DNA of 43,883 bases from a virus. The translations under genes and the position numbers were made by a program. Numbering within the stretch: position 1 is the stretch's first letter; every line of letters starts with the position of its first letter. Where the stretch lies: IMG/VR virus record IMGVR_UViG_3300009076_000012, positions 1-43,883 of that record. One strand, written 5' to 3'. The notes beneath the pieces were generated by a model, which was not told the origin of the DNA, searched no databases, and saw only the letters and a list, made by a program, of their open reading frames with translations. Shown piece after piece: positions 36,960 through 41,769 of the stretch.

Positions 36960-37661
36960 ATGGCATTACCAAAACTAGAAACACCAACGTACTCGATTGA
37001 AGTACCTTCCCTTAAAAGCGAAATAGAATTTAGACCGTTCCTCGTAAAAGAAGAAAAGATATTAATGATCGCTCAAGAATCTGAAGATGAAAATAAGATT
37101 CTAAAAACTATAAAAGATATCATCTCAGCATGTTCATTTGAAAAATTAGATCCATCAGAATGTACAGCATCAGATATTGAATATCTCTTTATACAGCTTC
37201 GCGCTAAAAGCATTGGAGAAAGTGTTACGATTAAAATTAAATGCTCAGAATGTAATGAATACACAGCTAATAAAATCGACCTTGAGGAGATTAAGCTTAG
37301 CGACGATGAAGAAGTTAATAATACTATTGAAATCACTGATTCAATTGGTATTGTTCTTAAAAAGATATCGATGCTTAACGCAGAGAAAATTAGTAAATCT
37401 GATCCGCTAAAGGCGTTTAATCAGTTGCTTATATATTCTATCGAATCTATCTATGATGCTGATAGCGTATATCCAGCAAGCGAATCAACCGAAAAAGAAC
37501 TAATCGCTTTCATCGATTCATTGTCTCATTCTCATCTTGAGAAGATTCAAGAGTATATTCAAGATGTTAAAAAGCTTCAACACACATGCTCGTTTAAGTG
37601 CAAATCATGCGGCCATGAAAATAAAACAGTATTAGAAGGTATTGAATCTTTTTTCTCATAG
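36960..37661 (+). CDS. 26: Baseplate hub / tail assembly chaperone gp26 (PF12322 type)
   Basis: The N-terminus (LPKLETPTYSIEVPSLKSEIEFRPFLVKEEKILM) and the order of helices are typical of the T4 baseplate gp26 family. Four cysteines form a likely zinc ribbon: C95xxC98 (KCSECN) and C214xxC217 (KCKSCGHEN), with C210 nearby. In contractile phages the gene just before the tape measure usually codes for a chaperone made in a short and a frameshifted long form. Here the end of the gene carries TTTTTTC at 37649-37655, and the -1 frame stays open to 37840. Length 233 aa (T4 gp26 208 aa). Confidence 0.8.
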   Translation: MALPKLETPTYSIEVPSLKSEIEFRPFLVKEEKILMIAQESEDENKILKTIKDIISACSFEKLDPSECTASDIEYLFIQLRAKSIGESVTIKIKCSECNEYTANKIDLEEIKLSDDEEVNNTIEITDSIGIVLKKISMLNAEKISKSDPLKAFNQLLIYSIESIYDADSVYPASESTEKELIAFIDSLSHSHLEKIQEYIQDVKKLQHTCSFKCKSCGHENKTVLEGIESFFS

Positions 37662-37840
37662 GCCTTTCTCATGATTCCCTATTGAATCATTATCAGACAA
37701 ATTTTGCTATGATGCAACACCATAATTATAGCTTAACAGAACTCGATAATATGTTACCTTGGGAAAGGCAGATTTACGTTTCTCTTTTACAAGCGCATAT
37801 AAAAGAAGAAAATGATAGAATTAAGAAACAAAACCAATAA
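36960..37840 (+). CDS. Predicted gp26 -1 frameshift product (293 aa)
   Basis: A -1 shift on T TTT TTC (37649-37655) within codons 231-232 bypasses the gp26 stop at 37659-37661 and adds 61 residues (LIGLSHDSLLNHYQTNFAMM..., ending NDRIKKQNQ) up to TAA at 37838. The added part has the helical MLPWERQIYVSLL motif seen in small proteins placed between the gp26-type and tape-measure genes. A Shine-Dalgarno-like AGAAGGT (37634-37640) lies eight bases before the slip site, as in dnaX-type shifting. An ATG-ATG at 37709 would allow a separate 43-aa protein instead. The frameshift is inferred from sequence. Confidence 0.65.
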
Positions 37841-37848: not shown

Positions 37849-40800
37849 ATGGTGCAAAAAGATAAAAGCTTAAACGATTTAACCAAACGACTGAAAGAGT
37901 TCCTAGAAAATCAAATTCAAGAACTTGAGTCGGCAACTACTGACATTGCTAATAACAATGCTGAGTTTGTTGCGGAAATTACCAAGGTACGAGCTAATAT
38001 CATATCAGCAGTAAGTAAAGAAACAGATGGGGGAAAGTTAACAGGACTAAATATCAAAAAAGATATAAGTCTCTCTGACTTTATGGGTGATACAGGTAAC
38101 CTTGAGAATCTAAACTTTGTGTTGGGTTTGAAACACCTTAACATAAAAAAGAATATTCTTAATGCTATTATCAAAGAGACTCAAGCCGGAAAGTTAAGCG
38201 GATTAGATTTAGATAAGACAATATCATTGTCAGATCTTCTTGGTGAATCGCCTAACTTAAATGCTGTGCATGCATTAAGATGGTTAAGAATCAAGAAAAC
38301 AATTCTCAAAAAGGTTGAATCTGCAGTTAAAGATGTAGATGTTAAAATAGATAATGAAGTATCTCTTAATGATATTCTTGGTTCTACACCAGAGCAAGAT
38401 ATATTGACGAAGGCTAGGTTCTTTATGATCCGTCAAGGATTGCTAAAAAGGATTTCGAAAGCAGCTAAAGAGTTTGATCCGCAACAGAGCGTTGACGAGA
38501 TCACAGGAGGGTTTGGATTAACAAGTGTGTTTTCCAATAAACCACGTATTGAAGAGAATAATTTAAATACGATAGGTTCTTCTGATGCGCATTTACTTGA
38601 GCTACAAGGCATCAATAAAAATCTAGCAAAGGTTCACGATCACCTTACTATTAATACTCCAGATGTAGCTGACAATATAGAAGACAAGAAAGAACAGATA
38701 AAGCGTAATGAGAGACGGCATGATGAATTAATAGCTACTCTTGCTAGTGTTGGAGGTGCTCAAAATAAGTTTCTTAGCGGAGGAGGCGAAGGCGGTGAAG
38801 GTGGCGGCCTTGGTTTCATGGATCTGCTAGTGGCTGATGTTGTTGGTGATAAAATTGGTGATAAAATGTCAAAGCGTGGGTTGCTGAAGGGGGCTCGTGG
38901 GATGTTTGCCGGTCTGACGGCTAAGATCGTTGGTTTGACGACTGCAATTGGTGGTTTGGCAATGGGTGTAGCTACATCGCCGTACACGATGATAGCTGCT
39001 ACCGCGGCGGCTTCGTATGCGGGTGGAAGGCTACTTGATAATAAGCTTGGCATTACTGACAAGTTTGCCGAGGCCGTAACAGGTGGCCCAGATAAAACGC
39101 CTAAGTACGAGAAAAACCAAAAACAAGCAATACTAAAGGCAGGTCTAGACGTTAATAAACCAATCCTCAATCCAGTGACTAAAGAAGTTACTGGATTTGA
39201 AGAACTTAACATTACAAAGGGCAAAGAAGGCAAGTATGACTTACTTCCTAGCCACTCGAGGTACGATCCAAAGATACATAAAAAATCGACTTCGGCAGAA
39301 GAAAAATTCATGCCTCCTGCAATTACTGCTGAAAGTCAATTACCTGGTTCGATCGTAAAGTCTGTCGTTGACGATAAAGATCCTAAAAACATAAAGGCAC
39401 AAGAAACGAAGCAGAAACAAGTTGATCTTATTATTGCTAAACGTAAGGCCGAAGATAATTTAAAATCATTTGAAGAAAATGCTGGCTCATTTAAGATGGA
39501 AGTGGTTAAAGGCACTGACAGTTTTGGAAAGCTTGACTCCTTCTACGACACCGAAGTAAAAGTATATGATGATGCAAAAGAACAAATAAAGTTTAAGGAT
39601 CTGCAGACAAAGATGTTGACCGCGAAAAATGAACAACATAGGGCCAAACAGAATATGTTCAAGAGAGCAGGCCGAGGTATAAACAAGGATAAAAAGTTTA
39701 CAAATCTCTCTGAGCAAAGAGATTTCTATGTCGCTAACGGATTAGCTGAAAAGGGAGAAACCCAGTTACCAATTGCTGAGAGTGATTATCGACTTACTAA
39801 ATTGCTTGAAGACGAAGCCACCAAACAAATGGCTGGAGATTCTGTGCCTCAAGATTCACTCGTTAAAGGAGAAGTAACTCCTAAAGATATTAAACCTTCT
39901 TCAGACTCTGTTACGACTGAAACAGTTGTCGGTGATAAAAAAGAAAAGAGCAGCGTTCCACAAGATCTTAAAAAAGCTAAACAGATTAAAGAGCAATTTG
40001 TTAAAGATATGCAAATGAGGCAAACAGCAGAAGATGCATTGACAAAGTTTAAGTCTGACAAATCTAAAGGAGAGTATACATACGCTGAAGATGAATATGG
40101 AAAATATCGTCGAGTATATGCAGATAAGAAGGCACAAACAGAGTATACACAATTAGAGGATGATCGTGAGTTATACGATCCATCAAGTACCGCTGCCGAT
40201 AATCTCGCAGCTGCGCTTGGTCACAACAATCAAGAAATGGCTAAATTCGAATTAATGGCGCTTCTTCCAAAGGGAACTGTTGAACCAAAAGACTTTCAGG
40301 ACAACATACTTGATGATAAAATAAGCGCAGCATATGTTCAAGAAGAATATCAGGCCAAAGTGCTGGAACTGGAAGCGATTGGAGAGTTCGGCCCTTCTAT
40401 AGAAAAGAAAAGGCTTCAAGATACTTATATGAAATACCGCGGTCATTCAACCGATGGAACGGGACGGGGGTCGAGAGTCGAGAAGATTCACAAACTTCAA
40501 TTTTTAACAGAAGAAGGTGAATTTGACGGAAAGGAAACATTTTCAGATGTAGATCCGAAGTTCAGGTCTGTTGACGGTGCTCTTCATGATTATCTAGTAA
40601 ATGAGGACTCAACCCCTAAGAATGGTCAGTATGTTGGCACTCCTGGTACCTTTAAGGGTGATCAAAGATCTCCTGAGAAAATCGCTGAATCAGTTCACAT
40701 TGAAACACAAAAGATGAACGGCCAAATACCAACACCGTACACATCGAATGAAATTAGTGTACCATATAAGGAGCAGGGTGAAAAAGTTATTGTGCCAACA

Positions 40801-41769
40801 GAAAGAATGACTGGAGTTGCTGTTGATCCAGAAGAACGAGCCAAAAAGCTTTTAGCAAAAACAAATGATGAAATAGCTGCATTTGAAAATAGTGATAAAG
40901 GTGAATACACATACGCTGAAAATGAGGTCGGGCAATATCGCCGAAAATATGTTGATAAGAACGTACAAAAATCATACGCAGATTTAATTGATAGACAGTC
41001 TCTTTATGAAACTTTGGAGTATGAAGACCAGCAAAAAGTAAATGCTCGATATATTAAAGAAGACTATCAACGCAGAGCAGTAAGCGGTGAAGAGTATAAT
41101 AGCTTTGATATGAATGACTTAAAGTACCGGTATTTGCGGTCGATGGGTTATGAAGGGTTTGATGAATATGATAACGGCACACTTCAAGATTTAAAGTACC
41201 TTAACGATAAAGGTGTAAATGTGGATGGTAACTTCTCTTCTATGGATCCTGAAATGCAGAGCATTGAAGGTATGATGCATACAGAGTTAATGAAAGGTGC
41301 TGAAGTTCCTAAACCTAAAGTCGTTGCTACTGATACTATGACCGGAAAAAGGGTTACTACGTCACCTAATGGGTTTAAAGTCACTGAAGGTGCTGCTCCA
41401 GATACTATGGAAATGTCAGAATCAGCGATGGCAGATATATCGGCGGAGAAACGGAGGGAATACAACCAAGCGTTTCAGAAAATGAGTAATGATCTATCAG
41501 AAGATGACAAAGTGAAGACAGGGATCGGGAGAATAGCAACTCCGTCTGATATACAGTTTGATGCACCATCTGCTGGAAATCAGATAGCTATGCAACAGAA
41601 AGCGAATCTCGATCTAGCATCTACATCTGCAGGAAACACTACATCGGTTATCGATGCGAGTAATAAAATTAATAACTCTAGTTCTTCATCATCTAACATT
41701 ACAGTTGCTGCTCCACCGCATATTGATAAGACACACGATGCGTTTGGTAAAACCGCACTTAATTGGTAA
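37849..41769 (+). CDS. Putative tape-measure / hub protein (1306 aa)
   Basis: No direct family match is certain. Position supports a tape measure: it follows the chaperone pair. Residues 49-197 hold three ~50-residue repeats (ISLSDFMG, ISLSDLLG, VSLNDILG, each near a xxIKKxIL helix). Residues 310-320 are glycine-rich, and ~345-395 form hydrophobic helices (FAGLTAKIVGLTTAIGGLAMGVA, MIAATAAASYAGG) as in tape measures that cross the host membrane. A ~150-190-residue module is repeated near 715-925 and 985-1160 (KGEYTYAE, YRR.Y.DK). The C-terminus is Ser-rich and ends KTALNW. T4 gp29 is 590 aa. A hub/core structural protein is the alternative. Confidence 0.55.
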   Translation: MVQKDKSLNDLTKRLKEFLENQIQELESATTDIANNNAEFVAEITKVRANIISAVSKETDGGKLTGLNIKKDISLSDFMGDTGNLENLNFVLGLKHLNIKKNILNAIIKETQAGKLSGLDLDKTISLSDLLGESPNLNAVHALRWLRIKKTILKKVESAVKDVDVKIDNEVSLNDILGSTPEQDILTKARFFMIRQGLLKRISKAAKEFDPQQSVDEITGGFGLTSVFSNKPRIEENNLNTIGSSDAHLLELQGINKNLAKVHDHLTINTPDVADNIEDKKEQIKRNERRHDELIATLASVGGAQNKFLSGGGEGGEGGGLGFMDLLVADVVGDKIGDKMSKRGLLKGARGMFAGLTAKIVGLTTAIGGLAMGVATSPYTMIAATAAASYAGGRLLDNKLGITDKFAEAVTGGPDKTPKYEKNQKQAILKAGLDVNKPILNPVTKEVTGFEELNITKGKEGKYDLLPSHSRYDPKIHKKSTSAEEKFMPPAITAESQLPGSIVKSVVDDKDPKNIKAQETKQKQVDLIIAKRKAEDNLKSFEENAGSFKMEVVKGTDSFGKLDSFYDTEVKVYDDAKEQIKFKDLQTKMLTAKNEQHRAKQNMFKRAGRGINKDKKFTNLSEQRDFYVANGLAEKGETQLPIAESDYRLTKLLEDEATKQMAGDSVPQDSLVKGEVTPKDIKPSSDSVTTETVVGDKKEKSSVPQDLKKAKQIKEQFVKDMQMRQTAEDALTKFKSDKSKGEYTYAEDEYGKYRRVYADKKAQTEYTQLEDDRELYDPSSTAADNLAAALGHNNQEMAKFELMALLPKGTVEPKDFQDNILDDKISAAYVQEEYQAKVLELEAIGEFGPSIEKKRLQDTYMKYRGHSTDGTGRGSRVEKIHKLQFLTEEGEFDGKETFSDVDPKFRSVDGALHDYLVNEDSTPKNGQYVGTPGTFKGDQRSPEKIAESVHIETQKMNGQIPTPYTSNEISVPYKEQGEKVIVPTERMTGVAVDPEERAKKLLAKTNDEIAAFENSDKGEYTYAENEVGQYRRKYVDKNVQKSYADLIDRQSLYETLEYEDQQKVNARYIKEDYQRRAVSGEEYNSFDMNDLKYRYLRSMGYEGFDEYDNGTLQDLKYLNDKGVNVDGNFSSMDPEMQSIEGMMHTELMKGAEVPKPKVVATDTMTGKRVTTSPNGFKVTEGAAPDTMEMSESAMADISAEKRREYNQAFQKMSNDLSEDDKVKTGIGRIATPSDIQFDAPSAGNQIAMQQKANLDLASTSAGNTTSVIDASNKINNSSSSSSNITVAAPPHIDKTHDAFGKTALNW
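37993..38439 (+). repeat. Three ~50-residue coding repeats in the 1306-aa protein
   Basis: The three units cover residues 49-101, 102-150 and 151-197. Each has a helix, a (I/V)SL(S/N)D.(M/L)G core, and a second helix. DNA identity between the units is low, so the duplication is old. Confidence 0.7.
39985..41330 (+). repeat. Two-copy ~150-190-residue module in the 1306-aa protein
   Basis: Copy one (about 39985-40620) and copy two (about 40830-41330) share KGEYTYAE(D/N)E.G.YRR.Y.DK, a Y(I/V).(K/E)(D/E)YQ segment, a K.L..L...G..(D/V)(G)..F(S).(V/M)DP and a (V/I)(D/E)G..H..L stretch in the same order. A weaker third copy may precede them near 39415-39840. Confidence 0.65.

Follow-up and report, generated by a model that had tools for sequence, protein, structure and literature searches.

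Frameshifting in tail chaperone genes is a textbook case, and Xu, Hendrix and Duda reportedly described it in 2004 for the tail chaperones of phage lambda (G/GT) and of other dsDNA phages. A 2016 review calls the tail-chaperone frameshift conserved "except T4" (PMC5009743). According to PMC10885494 and PMC12846349, through which we cite the work, the tail assembly chaperones of T4-like phages were identified by Vladimirov, Gautam and Davidson (2022, Virology 566:9-15), and by the summary in PMC10885494 a short gene and a fused long gene occur together in some T4-like phages. Poly-T slip sites are known for the TAC-N genes of T4-like phages (PMC12846349), and the same paper describes phage Adele (Vandenendeviridae/Andersonviridae), which has an invariant T-rich motif at the TAC-N end, an uninterrupted -1 frame, a downstream ORF mis-annotated as a separate gene, and a tape measure gene next.

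We analysed an IMG/VR virus record of 43883 bases from a marine T4-like virus, the whole of which is referred to here as the window. The locus of interest shares with Adele each of the features just listed, and differs from it in the motif (T TTT TTY rather than GTTTTT) and in the phage families concerned. As in the lambda G/GT type, the short ORF ends in a -1 slippery heptamer, the extension lies in the -1 frame, and the probable tape measure gene is next; unlike in lambda, there is no gpG/gpT sequence homology in profile searches, the N-terminal domain is larger with paired CxxC motifs, and the slip site is T TTT TTY. From the sequence evidence presented below, we consider it very probable that this is a G/GT-type tail assembly chaperone cassette, in which one gene would give both a short and a long chaperone by -1 frameshifting. 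The features, all on the plus strand, are as follows.

36960..37661, +: gp26-like short tail assembly chaperone (TAC-N), 233 aa plus stop (PF12322, phrog_150, profile alignment, AlphaFold2)
37634..37640, +: SD-like AGAAGGT upstream of the slip site (GG at -11/-10 in 104/104, without synonymous constraint)
37649..37655, +: slippery heptamer T TTT TTC, gp26 codons 231-232 (phase; T TTT TTY in 155/155 distinct relatives)
37655..37840, +: -1 frame extension, 61 codons plus stop, predicted C-terminal domain of the long chaperone (TAC-NC) (phrog_634, C-terminal part of phrog_150, hhalign, coding selection)
37662..37668, +: candidate 3' cis element GCCTTTC, consensus GCCTYTC, at +7..+13 after the heptamer (nucleotide-level constraint in the near clade)
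37709..37840, +: 43-aa ORF from an ATG, counterpart of ORFs annotated "gp51 / baseplate hub assembly catalyst", judged not to be an independent gene
37849..41769, +: probable tape measure protein, 1306 aa, no Cys (position, architecture)

The gp26 gene ends in TCT TTT TTC TCA TAG, with TTT and TTC as zero-frame codons 231-232 and the TAG stop at 37659-37661. An in-frame heptamer of the X XXY YYZ form is thus present near the end of the short ORF, where it overlaps the -1 ORF. From 37655 the -1 frame stays open up to the TAA at 37838-37840 and yields 61 residues, which gives a fusion of 232 + 61 = 293 aa with the predicted junction peptide ..ESFFLIGLSHDSLL.. across the slip. The first-pass annotation had proposed the T TTT TTC in the gp26 frame, the open -1 frame to 37840, the 293-aa fusion, and an AGAAGGT eight bases upstream of the heptamer, and all of these coordinates were confirmed. 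As a word, TTTTTTC is not rare in the AT-rich window (16 seen against 19.5 expected), and the case therefore rests on its phase and its conservation.

Relatives were fetched by gp26 alone, the presence of an extension being no condition, and the junction sample comprised 155 distinct junctions falling into 42 clusters at 70% amino acid identity. An in-frame T TTT TT[C/T] inside the gp26/-1 overlap, together with an extension of at least 40 codons open in the -1 frame, was found in 155/155 of them, so that the heptamer, whose conservation among relatives had been named as a check, was kept without exception. The chance expectation of an in-frame T TTT TTN is 0.013 per 15 terminal codons, and in the bodies of the same gp26 genes such sites occur at 8.5e-4 per codon, or about once per 1200 codons. 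Site and -1 extension are found in KVP40, Cr30, phiM19, RHph_Y68 (where the heptamer reads TTTTTTG), AdhaM_G2, Melnitz-3, P-SSM2, Mosig and SRB7757. Across the 155 junctions the base before TTT TTY is always T, in the codons AGT, TCT, AAT, GAT, GCT, ACT and CAT, while the residue before Phe-Phe varies among Ser, Asn, Asp, Ala, Thr and His. The first Phe codon is TTT in all relatives, as opposed to 70% TTT elsewhere, and a codon-identity test over the last 14 gp26 codons showed a clear excess limited to the two columns NNT TTT (2.3x and 1.75x; ranks 2 and 6 of 230).

These codon data bear on the idea that the T run is kept only for a conserved Phe-Phe peptide at the gp26 C-terminus, without any recoding. 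Such an explanation would fit the G-L-x-x-F-F protein motif, which is conserved even in T4-type gp26. However, T4-type gp26 retains the peptide as GLKEFF and codes it GAR TTC TTT (GAG TTC TTT in T4), which is not slippery, whereas the frameshift lineages have NNT TTT TTY without exception. In addition, the third base of the codon ahead of the Phe pair is under constraint although the encoded residue varies, and the protein sequence of the -1 frame is conserved; we put the chance of this explanation close to nil. Alternatively, RNA polymerase could slip on the T run and join the frames in the transcript, with no ribosomal frameshifting, and a homopolymer of 6-8 Ts does sit exactly at the junction. 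Six Ts, though, is short for polymerase slippage. The run has only six Ts in 55/104 junctions, which makes transcriptional slippage less likely than tandem slippage of two tRNA-Phe; runs of the same length also occur elsewhere in these ORFs, and the codon-phased NNT TTT TTY is what tandem -1 tRNA slippage requires. We regard transcriptional slippage as very unlikely.

Under the favoured reading of ribosomal -1 frameshifting, most ribosomes would terminate at the TAG (37659-37661) and release the short gp26-like chaperone, and a fraction would slip back by one base on T TTT TTC through tandem re-pairing of two tRNA-Phe (TTT TTC to TTT TTT) and continue in the -1 frame, giving the 293-aa long chaperone with its gp51-type C-terminal domain. 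On the model of lambda G/GT, both forms would coat the tape measure protein (the 1306-aa product), the extra domain would recruit tail tube or baseplate parts, and both chaperones would then leave. We infer that the shift takes place, how efficient it might be, what the products would bind, and that they would be absent from the virion.

The canonical heptamer is not universal across the wider family. In Ackermannviridae and in Cygsa01 a degenerate form takes its place (R ATT TTC or A CTT TTY), and the extension is still in the -1 frame. The corresponding loci in our set, L189-L206, L175 (Ackermannviridae), L172, L174 and L166, read R ATT TTC ATT TAA or A CTT TTY and keep a gp51-like extension in -1, which is unannotated in some of the records. 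These loci may use another slip mechanism involving a single tRNA-Phe (TTC to TTT).

The gp26 product matches PF12322 (E=5.2e-54, 183.7 bits, with a cut-off of 24.5) and phrog_150 (E=4.8e-59), and by hhalign the window-type gp26 aligns to the T4-type gp26 profile (E=1.6e-21) and to T4-type gp51 (E=2.6e-11). Its AlphaFold2 model has a pLDDT of 90 and, in a fold search of a viral library, matches gp26-type proteins of many phages. The same search against solved structures gave no significant match (the HK97 tail assembly chaperone gp13, 2OB9, came at ranks 13 and 16 with E about 2 and a target TM-score of 0.35, which is not significant); relatives of solved structure were also sought by sequence, with none convincing, and an NCBIfam search returned nothing meaningful. 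Two CxxC motifs are conserved in gp26, KCSEC near residues 95-98 and FKCKSCGH near 214-217, and they have counterparts in T4 gp26 and gp51; the pair is possibly a split zinc site in the chaperone.

The 61-residue extension retrieved phrog_634 ("baseplate hub assembly catalyst", T4 gp51) at E=1e-27, and it also matches the C-terminal part of the phrog_150 profile (E=3.6e-7) and aligns to residues 206-245 of T4-type gp51 (E=1.2e-5, hhalign). On these profile matches the extension is a homologue of the T4 gp51 C-terminal domain, an identity that can be added to the 61-codon reading frame whose existence had been noted from the window. A tblastn search with the extension found 687 phage records, and among the matches listed most are labelled gp51-type and abut or overlap the end of gp26. 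The earlier assignment of gp26 as the short chaperone and of the 293-aa product as the long one is supported by conservation, by coding selection, and by this homology to T4 gp51.

The public records that annotate a "baseplate hub assembly catalyst" ORF here, sometimes from an ATG inside the -1 frame, raise the question of whether gp51 is instead a separate small gene that starts at the ATG at 37709 and depends on coupling to gp26 for its translation, in which case the T run would be incidental. Almost every relative does have an ATG as codon 18 or 19 of the extension. This Met pair is conserved, and its distance from the slip site is constant despite the varying position of the gp26 stop, which in relatives comes directly after Phe-Phe or one codon further. 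Between the gp26 stop and the Met, differences at codon positions 1, 2 and 3 are 0.19, 0.10 and 0.53, and pN/pS is 0.164 before the ATG against 0.14 after it, ratios which are rough because synonymous sites are near saturation; about 17 codons ahead of the 43-aa ORF's ATG are accordingly selected as coding sequence just like those that follow it. A ribosome site was sought at the extension ATGs of the relatives and none was found: the two ATGs show SD-like matches of at least four bases in 17% and 0% of cases, below the 21% of background positions, as compared with 32% of gp26 starts and 41% of the next gene's starts. The -1 extension is, by these sequence comparisons, conserved as protein without a start signal of its own. 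T4 gp51 and its relatives, furthermore, are fused proteins that include the gp26 domain. Because the heptamer is invariant, the codons before the ATG are coding, and the ATG lacks a ribosome site, the gp51 of this locus is most probably no separate gene but the end of the long chaperone, made by frameshifting. We consider an independent gp51 gene exceedingly unlikely, and the 43-aa protein made alone, which would have spoken against the frameshift as first annotated, found no support.

We then considered what might stimulate the shift. The AGAAGGT had been put forward together with the slip site, and its presence stands; its role as a selected stimulator probably does not. The invariant GG is that of a conserved Gly codon, a codon-identity test along gp26 showed no synonymous constraint at this codon or the one before it, and the motif is probably a by-product of the Gly codon. 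Two structural candidates were also rejected. For a downstream stem-loop, the window fold has z = -1.9 and the mean over 26 relatives is -0.5, with no consensus RNA structure downstream of the slip site in 12 sequences, and a helix of the upstream purines with the downstream CCTYTC pairs no better than with shuffled partners. A better stimulator candidate than AGAAGGT is GCCTYTC at +7..+13. In the near clade, extension codon 2 ends in C in 95/104 junctions, across Gly, Ser, Ala and Cys, and codon 3 is CTT or CTC in 99/104, while TTA/TTG make up 41% of Leu codons elsewhere. The constraint spans extension codons 2-4 and goes beyond protein coding, in the near clade only and with counts uncorrected for relatedness. 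The element is absent in 55/55 P-SSM2-type junctions, and it is therefore a clade-specific candidate; no base-pairing partner for it was found.

T4 offers the closest comparison for the architecture of the locus. In T4, as in the window, the short form is a PF12322 domain and the long form is a PF12322 domain plus the gp51-type C-terminal domain, but there each form has its own gene, gp26 (208 aa) on one strand and gp51 (249 aa) on the other, without a slip site, whereas the window has one gene with a -1 site. In T4 gp51 the PF12322 domain (residues 1-201, E=3.9e-52) precedes the phrog_634 region, and T4-type gp26 and gp51 align to each other at E=1.6e-18 (hhalign). Separate short and long genes without the slippery site are found in T4, IME13, JSE, avDM2 and loci L179-L188; no heptamer was detected in the short genes of the two-gene lineages checked, and the site is absent in these lineages wherever the long form has its own gene. 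Vibrio phage Va1 has tandem short and long gp26-type genes (L169:1311-2653), and Campylobacter phage F379 has a full-length long-type gene (L170:1856-2596). By their sequences, both are further cases of a long chaperone with its own gene and no frameshift. A search with the Va1 long chaperone retrieved no viral contig relatives. A possible joint reading, which we hold tentatively and somewhat short of probable, is that the frameshifted gene is ancestral in T4-like phages and those related to them (Kyanoviridae, KVP40, rhizobial, Caulobacter, sulfate-reducer and marine types), that gene pairs took its place on two or more occasions (divergent in T4 and its relatives, tandem in Vibrio phage Va1), and that GCCTYTC stimulates the shift without a stem-loop or an upstream SD.

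The 1306-aa ORF at 37849 lies directly downstream of the chaperone gene, as do its counterparts in relatives, and the Cr30 counterpart is annotated as a tail tape measure protein. Where complete, the next large ORF of the relatives has 412-932 aa (the fetched flanks limit the longest complete ORF that is visible), with 0 or 1 Cys (none in almost every case) and usually one strong hydrophobic segment; its ends are conserved around a middle of variable length, and the C-terminus is H-I-D-[KR]-T in the near clade. The window protein is longer than all of the complete relatives seen, contains no Cys, and has a hydrophobic peak of 1.5 near residue 356, weaker than in most relatives. It also holds internal segments that are related to one another (KGEYTYAE... 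units). Family models (PF and phrog profiles, NCBIfam) gave no match to the 1306-aa protein. Its earlier identification as the tape measure is nevertheless supported by where the gene lies, by the lack of Cys, by conserved ends combined with a variable length, and by the hydrophobic segment that most relatives have, and we regard the product as a probable tape measure protein by position and architecture.

The general picture is, as far as it is represented in the later papers, largely published already, with the main identification dating from 2022. Placing the gp26 family in the general chaperone scheme, as the first-pass annotation did, holds good; its novelty does not, the placement being attributed in those papers to Vladimirov et al. 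2022. What we add is a conservation test that is both large and strict, a T4 control at codon level, the case against a free gp51, and the downstream element. The two-gene T4-type phages, which lack the slippery codons and keep the peptide, amount to a natural experiment and make the function of the site directly testable. Our results also explain why many genomes of cyanophages and pelagiphages show a tiny orphan ORF labelled "gp51, baseplate hub assembly catalyst": it most probably encodes the end of the long chaperone, reached by frameshifting; in T4 the same gp51-type end belongs to a full-length gp26-like protein.
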